A stretch of DNA of 13,274 bases from an uncultured Hyphomicrobiales bacterium. GTDB taxonomy: Bacteria > Pseudomonadota > Alphaproteobacteria > Rhizobiales > Aestuariivirgaceae. A program made the position numbers and the translations under genes. The stretch is from contig CAIYXE010000003.1 of the NCBI GenBank assembly GCA_903930095.1, positions 1-13,274 of the forward strand, in the 5' to 3' direction. The stretch's first letter is position 1; every line of letters starts with the position of its first letter. A model generated the notes under the pieces. It was not told the origin of the DNA. It ran no database searches and saw only the letters and a program-made list of their open reading frames with translations. Positions 37 through 13,138 of this stretch are shown here, piece by piece.

Positions 37-621
37 TTGCCGGAACTCCTTACCAAACTGTCCTTTGCAGGCACGGTCGATGAGTTTCTCGCCAACCCCG
101 ACCGCGACAGGGGCCTCGAGAAGCAATGGGTGCCCGAGGCACATTTCCTGTTCTCCGGCATGGAGGGCGACTGCCATGCTGGCATGACCCGCAAGTCCGA
201 CAGCCGCATGCTCAAGCAGTACAAGCGGAACACGGAGGTGAGGAATTCCCGTCAGGTATCCATCCTCTCGTTAGAGGAACTCGCCGAGGTTGCGGAGCGC
301 ATGGGCATTCCCGCAGTGAAACCGGAGTGGGTGGGGGCGAACATGGTGATCAGGGGCATCCCCGACCTTACCTTGCTGCCGCCCTCGACGCGCCTGCAAT
401 TCCCGTCGGGTGCGATGATCGTCGTCGATGCCGAGAATTATCCCTGCCGCTATCCGGCAGACATCATTGCGAAGCATCACCCCGAAGCCCGGAAAGGCTT
501 CGTTTCGGCCGCCATGCACAAGCGCGGCGTGGTCGGCTGGGTCGAGGCGGAGGGTGTTGTCTGCAAAGGTGATGCGATCACCATCTGGATTCCGCCGCAG
601 CGGCTGTACTCCCACGCATGA
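37..621 (+). CDS. MOSC domain-containing protein (possibly 5'-partial)
   Basis: Stand-alone MOSC (molybdenum cofactor sulfurase C-terminal) domain protein. MOSC domains are thought to handle sulfur or Moco during molybdoenzyme maturation, with a conserved cysteine as the active residue. Visible family signals, numbered from the TTG at 37, are GDCHAG at about 44-49, the NSRQVSILS segment at about 70-78, LTLLPPSTRLQFPSGA at about 111-126, and ENYPC with the conserved Cys137. The length of 194 residues suits the short MOSC family. The start is uncertain. TTG at 37 has no clear ribosome binding site, and the reading frame stays open leftward to base 1, so the true start may lie outside the window. 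The stop overlaps the mobA start (ATGA at 618-621), and the pairing with mobA and mobB supports a Moco-related role. The exact substrate cannot be read from sequence. Confidence 0.85.
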   Translation: MPELLTKLSFAGTVDEFLANPDRDRGLEKQWVPEAHFLFSGMEGDCHAGMTRKSDSRMLKQYKRNTEVRNSRQVSILSLEELAEVAERMGIPAVKPEWVGANMVIRGIPDLTLLPPSTRLQFPSGAMIVVDAENYPCRYPADIIAKHHPEARKGFVSAAMHKRGVVGWVEAEGVVCKGDAITIWIPPQRLYSHA

Positions 622-1211
622 GGATCTGCGCTGTCATCGTCGCCGGCGGGCACTCGTCGCGCATGGGCCGTGAGAAGGCGCTGGCGCTCGTGCATGGGCG
701 AACCCTTGTCGAAAGGGTCATCGATGCGTTGTCGGCACAGGTTGACGCCGTGGCGATCAACGCGAACGGAGACGTGGCGCGTTTCGCCATGACGACGCTT
801 CCGGTGTTCGGTGATCTGCGTAACGATATCGGAACGCCGCTTGCCGGCCTTCACGCGGCATTGACCCATGCTGTTCAGCATGGTTTTGATGCGGTGCTCA
901 CCACTCCCTCGGATGCCCCGTTCCTGCCGCATGATCTCGTGGCGCGGCTTGCCACGGCAGGTCCGCCTGCGGCCATCGCGGCCTCGGGCGGGCGGGAGCA
1001 TTATCTCACCGGGCTCTGGTCTTCCAACCTGCTGGGGGATCTCGAGAAAGCGCTTTCACAAGCATGCACGCCGCGGATGCAGGATTGGGCAAGGCATTGC
1101 CATGCGGCGGTCGTCGAGTGGCCAATCACCTCACATGATCCGTTCTTCAACGCGAACACGCCGGGCGAGCTTGCAGAAGCGGAGCGGATTGCGGCAGAGT
1201 TCGCCCCATGA
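618..1211 (+). CDS. mobA: Molybdenum cofactor guanylyltransferase MobA
   Basis: Cytoplasmic nucleotidyltransferase that joins GMP from GTP to molybdopterin-bound molybdenum, giving the guanine dinucleotide cofactor used by DMSO-reductase-family enzymes. The N-terminus has the glycine-rich nucleotide-binding motif of this family, AGGHSSRMGREK, at residues 9-20, with Lys20 as the expected catalytic lysine. TTPSDAPFLP at about 95-104 contains Asp99, the likely metal-binding aspartate. FFNANTPGEL near the C-terminus is typical of MobA and related MobA-like transferases. The 197-residue length matches MobA. The gene sits between a MOSC gene and mobB, overlapping each by four bases (ATGA), which indicates one transcript with coupled translation. 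A MocA-type cytidylyltransferase is the main alternative, but adjacency to mobB favours MobA. Confidence 0.93.
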   Translation: MRICAVIVAGGHSSRMGREKALALVHGRTLVERVIDALSAQVDAVAINANGDVARFAMTTLPVFGDLRNDIGTPLAGLHAALTHAVQHGFDAVLTTPSDAPFLPHDLVARLATAGPPAAIAASGGREHYLTGLWSSNLLGDLEKALSQACTPRMQDWARHCHAAVVEWPITSHDPFFNANTPGELAEAERIAAEFAP

Positions 1212-1708
1212 ACAGGGTCATTGGTGTTGCGGGTTTCAAGAATGCGGGAAAGACCACGCTGGTTGAGAAGCTCGTGACGGAGCTTACCCGGCGCGGCCAT
1301 CGCATCTCCACGGTGAAGCATGCACATCACTCCTTCGACATCGACCATCAGGGCCGCGACAGCTTCCGCCACCGCAAGGCCGGGGCTTCTGAGGTTGCCG
1401 TCGTCTCGCGCCACCGCTGGGCCATCATTCACGAATCGCGGGACGACGCGGAACCGACCCTTGAGGAAATCCTCGCCAAGCTGGCGCCCTGCGACCTGGT
1501 CATCGTCGAGGGATACAAACGTGACAGCCATGACAAGATCGAGGTGCGCAACCTCGACCTCGCCCACCCCGTGCTCGCGGGCGATGATCCGACCATCGTG
1601 GCAGTTGCCGCGAACGGGCCGGCTGGGGATTTGCCCGTTCCAGTCTTTGACCGGAACGACGTGACGGCACTCGTGGGCTTCATCGAAAAACATACCGGGC
1701 TCACATGA
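1208..1708 (+). CDS. mobB: Molybdopterin-guanine dinucleotide biosynthesis adaptor MobB
   Basis: P-loop GTP-binding protein that assists MobA in making and delivering the molybdopterin guanine dinucleotide cofactor; it is helpful rather than essential in characterised bacteria. The Walker A motif GFKNAGKT occupies residues 9-16. It is followed by the family signature around TVKHAHH and DIDHQGRDSFRHRKAG (about 36-59), and by a Walker B-like strand with CDLVIVEGYKRD at about 97-108. The 166-residue length is normal for a stand-alone MobB. The start overlaps the mobA stop as ATGA and the stop overlaps the next gene the same way, placing it third in a four-gene operon. Confidence 0.94.
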   Translation: MNRVIGVAGFKNAGKTTLVEKLVTELTRRGHRISTVKHAHHSFDIDHQGRDSFRHRKAGASEVAVVSRHRWAIIHESRDDAEPTLEEILAKLAPCDLVIVEGYKRDSHDKIEVRNLDLAHPVLAGDDPTIVAVAANGPAGDLPVPVFDRNDVTALVGFIEKHTGLT

Positions 1709-2241
1709 CACCACAGCAGGTGACGGACTTCTGGGAACAGGCGGGCGAAAGCCGTTGGTTCATAAAGGACGCCGCCTTCGACGGTGCCCTGAAAGTGCGC
1801 TTCGGGGATGCTCTGGTGCATGCACGGGCCGGGGCGTTCGACCACTGGTCCGAGACCCCGGAGGGAGCTCTGGGCCTCGTCATCCTGCTTGACCAGGTGC
1901 CGCGCAACACCCACCGAGGAAGCCCGATGGCCTTTGCGGCGGACGCCAAGGCGCTCCGCATGGCAAGAGGCTGGATCGGGCGGGGCTACCACCAGAAGCT
2001 TCCCGCACCGCGTGCGCGGTGGCTGGTCATGCCCTATGAACACGCCGAGGACATCGATGCGCAGCACAGAGCCGTTGCCCTGTTCCAGACCATGGGGCTG
2101 TCGCACATGGCCTACTGGGCGCAGGTCCACCTCGATATCATCGCCCGCTTCGGGCGCTTTCCGCACCGCAATGCCCTGTTGGGGCGGGTTTCCACTCCGC
2201 AGGAGCGGGCCTTCCTGACGGCGGGCGGATTCGCGGGCTGA
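1705..2241 (+). CDS. DUF924 family protein
   Basis: Conserved protein of unknown function belonging to the DUF924 family (helical, TPR-like fold predicted for the family). Recognisable signatures are the N-terminal VTDFWEQAG and WFIKDAAFD, the LVILLDQVPRNTHRGSPMAF block near the middle, MPYEHAEDIDAQ, and the C-terminal RFGRFPHRNALLGRVSTPQE. The length of 178 residues is typical. It shares an ATGA overlap with mobB, so it should be co-transcribed and translationally coupled to the Moco genes. That context does not by itself define a Moco function, because DUF924 genes occur in many settings. It is the last gene of the operon; a gap of 103 bases follows. Confidence 0.88.
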   Translation: MTPQQVTDFWEQAGESRWFIKDAAFDGALKVRFGDALVHARAGAFDHWSETPEGALGLVILLDQVPRNTHRGSPMAFAADAKALRMARGWIGRGYHQKLPAPRARWLVMPYEHAEDIDAQHRAVALFQTMGLSHMAYWAQVHLDIIARFGRFPHRNALLGRVSTPQERAFLTAGGFAG

Positions 2242-12174: not shown

Positions 12175-12717
12175 ATGCAGCAGTTCTGGATTTTTGGCTA
12201 TGGCTCGCTCATGTGGCGGCCCGGGTTCGATTTTCTGCGCAGCGAACCGGCCCTCGTCCACGGCCATCACCGCCGACTCTGTGTCTATTCCCACGTGCAC
12301 CGCGGAACGCCTGATCAGCCGGGACTGGTCCTCGGCCTCGACCGGGGCGGGTCATGTCATGGCCTGGCATTCCAGATCGCCCCGCAGCGCTGGGAAGAGA
12401 CCATTGCCTATCTCCGTGCCCGGGAACAGGTGACATCGGTCTATCTTGAGATGCGCAAGACCGTAAGGCTGCTCACCAGCGGCTTCATCACGGACGCGAC
12501 GACCTATGTCGTGGACAGAAACCATGTCCAGTACGCAGGCGCACTTGGAGAAGATGCACTCATGGAGCATGTATCACGTGGGCAGGGCATTTCCGGCCGA
12601 TGCATCGACTATGTCCAGAATACCGTCGAACATCTGAGAGCCATGAAGATTCATGATCCCACATTGGAACGCCTGGCCCGGAAACTTGCACTTCAGGCAG
12701 CGAGCAGATCCAGCTGA
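12175..12717 (+). CDS. Gamma-glutamylcyclotransferase (ChaC-like)
   Basis: A 180-residue ChaC-family enzyme, expected to split glutathione into 5-oxoproline and cysteinylglycine in the cytoplasm. The substrate-binding loop FGYGSLMW is at residues 7-14, and the catalytic glutamate is Glu84 in YLRAREQVTSVYLE, the arrangement found in ChaC proteins. LVLGLDRGGSCHGLAFQI (about 51-68) and the C-terminal GISGRCIDYVQNTVEHL (about 139-155) also fit the family. It diverges from the DUF2125 gene with only 22 bases between the two ATGs, so its promoter probably lies inside that gene. Its 3' end overlaps the convergent SOS-type gene by 25 bases. Activity on glutathione versus other gamma-glutamyl compounds is inferred from the family. 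Confidence 0.91.
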   Translation: MQQFWIFGYGSLMWRPGFDFLRSEPALVHGHHRRLCVYSHVHRGTPDQPGLVLGLDRGGSCHGLAFQIAPQRWEETIAYLRAREQVTSVYLEMRKTVRLLTSGFITDATTYVVDRNHVQYAGALGEDALMEHVSRGQGISGRCIDYVQNTVEHLRAMKIHDPTLERLARKLALQAASRSS

Positions 12718-13103
12718 ACGGGTCTTGCAAGAGGCCTGGGTTCGGTGATGGCCGGAGGATCCGAACTCACGGCTGCCAGAAGATCGGCCAGAACCTGTTG
12801 CGCACCCTCCTCATCCTGGGCGATGAGGTGGACGTGGATCTCCTCCTCTACGGGCCAGCCTCCGTCGGTATGCGCGCCGCATGAGGTCATGTGAGAATGG
12901 AAGCGCCCGACAGAAACGGCCCGTCGCATTCCGCCCTTCACGTTGACGATGACGAACACAGCGCCCGCGACCGGCGGACAAAGATCGCGGCGATAGATCG
13001 AGTGGATGTAGCGGCGGCCCGATGCGCCGCGCCAATACCAGAACCGTTCACCAAGGCCTGGATCTTCAGGTAGGACGGCAGTGAGGGAGTGACCTTGCAG
13101 CAT
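12693..13103 (-). CDS. Small LexA-controlled protein with C-terminal clamp-binding-like motif
   Basis: Not a named family that I recognise. From ATG 13103 it encodes 136 residues. Residues about 19-110 are a compact alpha/beta domain with FWYWRGASGRRYIHSIY (21-37), a hydrophobic strand AVFVIVN (48-54), and EEIHVHLIAQDEEG (87-100). Residues 115-129 are proline-rich and probably disordered, ending in QLDLL (130-134), which fits the consensus of bacterial sliding-clamp binding peptides. The frame also opens from ATG 13229, but that longer version would contain the promoter and LexA box, so 13103 is preferred. The promoter predicts a leaderless message. The 3' end overlaps the gamma-glutamylcyclotransferase gene. 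The order of domain and tail is seen; an SOS/clamp role is inferred. Confidence 0.75.
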   Translation of the reverse strand: MLQGHSLTAVLPEDPGLGERFWYWRGASGRRYIHSIYRRDLCPPVAGAVFVIVNVKGGMRRAVSVGRFHSHMTSCGAHTDGGWPVEEEIHVHLIAQDEEGAQQVLADLLAAVSSDPPAITEPRPLARPVQLDLLAA

Positions 13104-13105
13104 GA

Positions 13106-13120
13106 GAACAAATATAGAAC
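13106..13120 (-). promoter_or_regulatory. LexA (SOS) box of alphaproteobacterial type
   Basis: On the plus strand the sequence is GAACAAATATAGAAC, an exact GAAC-N7-GAAC direct repeat, equal to GTTC-N7-GTTC on the minus strand. This is the established LexA operator form in alphaproteobacteria. The N7 spacer contains the -10 element of the minus-strand promoter, so LexA binding would block RNA polymerase. Confidence 0.85.
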
Positions 13121-13138
13121 AAACCTCGATCCTGTCAA
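13111..13138 (-). promoter_or_regulatory. Sigma70-type promoter of the SOS-type gene, leaderless start
   Basis: On the minus strand a perfect -35 TTGACA (13138-13133) is separated by 16 bases from a near-consensus -10 TATATT (13116-13111). The ATG at 13103 begins eight bases after the -10 element, where transcription is expected to start, leaving essentially no 5' leader and no room for a Shine-Dalgarno site. Confidence 0.8.

Follow-up and report, generated by a model that had tools for sequence, protein, structure and literature searches.

The window analysed here (13,274 nucleotides [nt]) is the whole of contig C3 of genome G000, from an uncultured Hyphomicrobiales bacterium, and carries on its minus strand a gene for a protein of 136 amino acids (aa) with a LexA-type box in its promoter and a peptide, QLDLL, that resembles the motif by which bacterial proteins bind the sliding clamp DnaN (Table 1). 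Translation of the gene yields a C-terminus that reads EPRPLARPVQLDLLAA up to the stop codon (that is, ...PRPLARPVQLDLLAA, or ...PVQLDLLAA). As a preliminary description of the locus had stated, QLDLL lies two residues before the end, behind a proline-rich stretch (PPAITEPRPLARPV); A135 and A136 separate it from the stop codon at 12693-12695.

Table 1. Features of the SOS-type gene, its promoter and its convergent neighbor (window coordinates).
Feature	Position	Strand	Basis
SOS protein gene (136 aa), with its stop codon	12693..13103	-	translation, homologues
Core, conserved (residues 18-112; RFWYWRGASG..YIHSIY..CPP..GAVFV..GRF..EIHVHL..DL), which may be a divergent GIY-YIG-fold domain	12768..13052	-	alignments, bridge member L207, weak models
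Variable proline-rich linker, residues 113-129	12717..12767	-	translation, tail comparison, alignment
QLDLL, clamp-binding-type motif, residues 130-134	12702..12716	-	translation, tail statistics
LAA C-terminus, residues 134-136, ssrA-like degron candidate	12696..12704	-	tail-end counts, tmRNA tag
LexA box GTTCTATATTTGTTC	13106..13120	-	sequence, genome pattern search
-10 hexamer TATATT, within the LexA box	13111..13116	-	sequence
-35 hexamer TTGACA, 16 nt ahead of the -10 hexamer	13133..13138	-	sequence, relatives
Convergent ChaC-type gamma-glutamylcyclotransferase gene	12175..12717	+	Pfam PF04752, E 2e-38

A LexA box within the promoter

The box conforms to GTTCN7GTTC, the pattern that marks membership of the alphaproteobacterial LexA/SOS regulon and that a passage of PMC12700426 gives as the LexA box consensus in Alphaproteobacteria (Caulobacter). 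The start ATG lies 2 nt past the box; the mRNA is therefore probably leaderless, with transcription beginning at the start codon itself. We read 131 homologues, i.e. all 58 from the window's own bacterial family (f1) and 73 of the 124 other hits in the order; 102 of these, among them 57 of the 58 f1 homologues, have a box in the roughly 250 nt ahead of the gene; the sole f1 exception, in G080, has no box in 595 nt. Of the 102 boxed homologues, 83 have TTGAC no more than 24 nt ahead of the box, and in 72 the ATG stands 1-2 nt past it. As a background, a box was found in 119 of 1916 segments of 290 nt (loci L001-L132, both strands, true sites counted in).

Across the whole of its own genome, the pattern GTTCTN4TTGTTC was matched three times (read backwards, it had no match): at the gene of the 136-aa protein, 89 nt ahead of ssb in the space that separates it from a divergent gene, and before a gene of the PA0069 family. 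In addition, a box of the same class lies upstream of dinB in relative G081 (DinB assigned from PF00817), and such boxes adjoin imuA-type genes in G017, G065 and G081, on the other strand in G017 and G065; imuA and ssb were assigned by eye, as were genes beyond dinB and imuB. Judging from the promoter box and its recurrence among the homologues, the gene is almost certainly under LexA control, which bears out the SOS-type regulation proposed in the preliminary description.

A second LexA-type box (GTTCTTGACATGTTC or GTTCTTGACTTGTTC) lies over the -35 TTGAC in G012, G019, G022 and G033 (loci L021, L025, L035 and L019), and the promoter is therefore covered twice in those four loci. The PA0069-family gene of the window's own genome (L165:340-1671, minus strand, contig C661) encodes a radical SAM protein (NF033668, E 1e-168), and a LexA-type box, GTTCTTGTTTTGTTC, lies close to its probable start. 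The product, too, has a clamp-motif-like C-terminus (...PPQPGEQLTLI), making this a further SOS-type gene with such an end.

A tail with a clamp-type motif and a degron-like end

QLDLL is a Q-anchored consensus peptide, as in DnaN binders, and is set in a region judged flexible from its composition and its low predicted local distance difference test score (pLDDT; <50 for residues 115-136, in a predicted model that is weak over its whole length). According to passages of a review (PMC9690074), bacterial clamp binders carry QL(S/D)LF, and the consensus may vary more widely. The likeness to the clamp motif of DinB and ImuB (QL[S/D]LF type; QLELPF in DinB of relative G081, and QLPLWG in mycobacterial ImuB, as given in an excerpt of PMC10421592) lies in the Q-anchored hydrophobic peptide; unlike in these proteins, the motif in the window stands on a small non-polymerase protein, at its extreme C-terminus and fused to an -AA end.

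Tails were scored with a pattern (Q..[LM][FLWIY] or Q..L.[FLWY]) that was written after tails had been seen, on 64 sequences from f1 and from families f5 and f36, the latter two added once their tails had been seen; G080, truncated at its 3' end by the contig boundary, and 11 rest-of-order tails without the script's anchor were left out of the count. The motif occurs in 27 of the 64 tails, whereas 2000 composition-preserving shuffles gave 2.16 on average and never more than 7; in f1 alone it occurs in 24 of 57 tails (1.85 expected by shuffling). It is specific for its glutamine, with 0.338 tails per Q versus at most 0.076 when any of eleven other letters serves as the anchor. Read in reverse, the motif was found in one of the 64 tails, and none of the 64 cores holds the motif itself. 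A chance motif is ruled out by the shuffles and the anchor-letter controls.

The forms of the motif span several genera and comprise QLELL/QLDLL (8 genomes), QLSLL (2), QLVLI, QIELAF, QTELAF, QPGLF, QPSLF, QSELF, QAEMF, QGSLF, QVDLF, QIDLF and QLSLW, as well as QxxLPLF (QPVLPLF, QVSLPLF) in all six genomes of genus g26; the linkers between core and motif vary in length and sequence. In a tree built from the cores alone (69 rows), the motif label takes 11 changes, at least 8 of them across well-supported branches, a value as low as which was reached in none of 500 label shuffles (mean 21.5). The motif has therefore been inherited within clades, yet gained or lost several times. Its recurrence in varied forms among the near tails supports a functional clamp-binding motif, and the tail peptide is in our view likely to be one.

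Some observations weigh against this reading. The motif is missing from 25 of the 37 tails of the window's own genus and from all 55 remaining tails scored in the order. The clamp reading of the preliminary description is supported by the recurrence of the Q-anchored peptide, in different forms and after unrelated linkers, across several genera, but the case is less simple than presented there. Moreover, the last 25 nt of the ChaC-type gene (12693-12717) overlap the tail codons. Among 30 genomes inspected, 11 have a frame of the same convergent geometry, with third codon positions facing third (identified as ChaC by profile only in the window), and 10 of these 11 bear the motif. Because the tail codons overlap this frame, conservation of the motif in the window's clade is partly dual coding, and because 11 genomes share the frame, the window's subclade is the weakest ground for an argument from conservation. 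A pure dual-coding artefact is ruled out for the family, 17 of the 27 motif bearers lying outside the 25-nt overlap group; for the window's clade it is a caveat. Other antisense frames of at least 80 codons cross or end in most tails (e.g. in G063, G064 and G073-G075), as is usual for GC-rich DNA. Elsewhere in the window (37-1708), MOSC-type, MobA-like and MobB-like genes, named by eye, stand in a row that we take to be a molybdenum cofactor cluster.

The protein ends in LLAA, an ssrA-like C-terminus of the LAA/VAA type found in ClpXP substrates. This signal had been overlooked in the preliminary description, and in the genus the -[LV]AA end is more widespread than the clamp motif. Among the genus tails, 22 of 37 have an [LVMI]AA end (0.36 expected); the end is also present in 11 of 20 tails from other f1 genera (0.17 expected), in none of seven from f5 and f36 (0.04 expected) and in one of 55 from the rest of the order (0.40 expected), where a plain AA end occurs in nine (2.31 expected). 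Motif and AA end are combined in 16 of the 64 tails; 24 have the AA end only, 11 the motif only and 13 neither. The tmRNA tag is ANDNYAPVAVAA in the window's own genome (ending AVAA) and in G017, ANDNYAEARLAA in G065 and ANDNYAPAALAA in G081. The tags of all four genomes end VAA or LAA, endings shared with the tails, which therefore appear to mimic their hosts' own ssrA tags. The N-terminal fragment of LexA ends VAA. This fragment, according to part of PMC5742171, is likewise an SOS protein with a ClpXP-dependent C-degron, which arises there by cleavage and would be encoded here at the natural C-terminus. On these grounds we lean slightly towards -LAA being a ClpXP degron.

The conserved core and its possible ancestry

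Searches recovered relatives from 58 of the 69 genomes of the window's own bacterial family, from 134 of 297 genomes sampled in the order (single-sequence query), from 8 of 289 genomes sampled in the class (at most 15 candidates scored per genome), and from none of the plasmids and viral contigs searched. Alignment of 82 members shows two invariant residues, G26 and D107, and at least 90% conservation at F21, W24, S28, G29, Y32, G66, E88, H90, H92 and L108. The view that the protein is undescribed held up: it matches no described family above cut-off in Pfam, NCBIfam or PHROGs (a single Pfam hit below cut-off has E 0.061), and NCBIfam, PHROGs and PADLOC gave nothing. A family scan of the 82 members returned weak matches each confined to one or two members, a PDB sequence search reached E 0.47 at best, Foldseek with both weak models gave no match at E <=0.001, and in a limited literature search we recognised no publication describing the family.

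A family member from outside the order, L207 (genome G551, 1450-1857, plus strand), points to a GIY-YIG relationship. It is found by the family profile at E 6e-17 and matches the window protein at 1e-7 in single-pair BLAST. Its best Pfam model is PF01541 (E 0.0074; 17.0 bits, below the cut-off of 22.6), and its sole NCBIfam match is excinuclease Cho (E 0.02). PADLOC gives a hit to PDC-S14 (E 0.02). A GIY-YIG profile finds L207 at E 1.9e-4 and L210 at E 0.061, compared with 1.1 for the best unrelated decoy, in a decoy set into which members of the family (from L204-L211) and a probable GIY-YIG fragment had slipped inadvertently. L207 has a fuller GIY-YIG-like motif (YIFV..LYAGMTTDLETR), of YAG type. 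No LexA box lies within 300 nt upstream of it, and among 96 genomes it had no relative but itself. L207 is a useful bridge for structural work.

Other results argue against such an ancestry. In the reverse search, the family profile found none of 29 GIY-YIG domains (best E 5.8); the window protein has no match to the GIY-YIG superfamily profile at its cut-off, and GIY-YIG is absent from the Foldseek listing for the second weak model. The tyrosine of the GIY column is present in 52 of the 82 members (Phe in the window protein), that of the YIG column in none (Ala in 31, Trp in 16, Ser in 10), and at or next to the position of the UvrC glutamate 17 of 82 members have Glu (Leu105 in the window protein); the window protein has no residue corresponding to the UvrC helix arginine and thus does not carry the set of both tyrosines, arginine and glutamate. 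After rechecking the family profile and the glutamate column we lowered our confidence a little, and consider GIY-YIG ancestry of the core moderately probable; that the core is an active nuclease seems unlikely.

Cho, a UvrC-like GIY-YIG excinuclease of Escherichia coli, is SOS-induced and is not known to bind the clamp. It resembles the present family through L207; the window protein differs in having neither an NCBIfam match nor the YIG tyrosine. A Bacteroidetes exonuclease with a GIY-YIG domain is similar, as described in PMC8565304, in that a GIY-YIG protein stands under a LexA-like motif.

Readings of the two-part protein

We suggest that the LexA-repressed gene would yield, during DNA damage, a small two-part protein, with a conserved core that may have the GIY-YIG fold and may act on or bind DNA, and a flexible tail whose peptide (QLDLL here) would bind the clamp; the -LAA end would act as an ssrA-like signal by which ClpXP clears the protein once the damage is over. 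Of the readings considered, the clamp binding put forward in the preliminary description appears to fare best; to it we add the degron-like end and the possible GIY-YIG core. To the SOS-induced two-part protein with a clamp-type tail and an ssrA-like end, taken as a whole, we assign a probability of about 0.65.

Alternatively, the tail might be a degradation signal only: ClpXP would recognise -LAA as an ssrA-like degron, and in the window's clade QLxL would be a by-product of the ChaC-type overlap. Indeed, of the 37 genus tails, 26 have an -AA end and 12 the clamp motif, and the overlap is common to 11 genomes, 10 of them with the motif; however, this reading is made improbable by the 17 of 27 motif bearers outside the overlap group and by the 11 of 27 that have the motif without an -AA end (including G069, G073-G076, G085 and G191). 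The combination of clamp motif and proteolysis signal in one protein also recalls SocB of Caulobacter, described in parts of PMC9690074 and PMC5422525 as a toxin that docks on the clamp via the usual motif and is degraded by ClpXP, differing in that its clearance proceeds via an adaptor, SocA. By this precedent the protein would be a replication brake that fills the DnaN cleft and blocks polymerase access as a checkpoint, until proteolysis lifts it. We find such a brake doubtful, since most relatives have the well-conserved core (W24, G26, S28, Y32, E88, H90, H92, D107) and no clamp motif, which argues for the core having a job of its own. A further alternative is a nuclease that would cut DNA at clamps as a clamp-aimed counterpart of Cho, as the YAG-type motif of L207 and its weak matches to PF01541 and Cho would allow; with no tyrosine in the YIG column of any aligned member, the glutamate in so few of them and the helix arginine without counterpart, an active GIY-YIG-type nuclease is a poor candidate.

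Within the reading of a clamp-binding protein cleared by ClpXP, motif and degron may even be fused purposely (QLDLL-AA; QPVLPLF-SDMAA in a sister genus), such that docking hides the ssrA-like end and the protein is destroyed on release, with a remodelled GIY-YIG core bearing a new polar site (Y32, H34, E88, H90, H92, D107) acting on DNA at the clamp. We offer this extension tentatively, as an outside chance. The protein would then survive only for as long as it stays docked at sites of damage on clamps loaded on DNA; a clamp motif directly beside a degron would be a simple means of tying its lifetime to clamp occupancy. We propose the family as an unnamed candidate SOS factor, frequently present in Hyphomicrobiales, and the repeated gain or loss of its clamp-type tail is a natural experiment on the wiring of proteins to the replication clamp.
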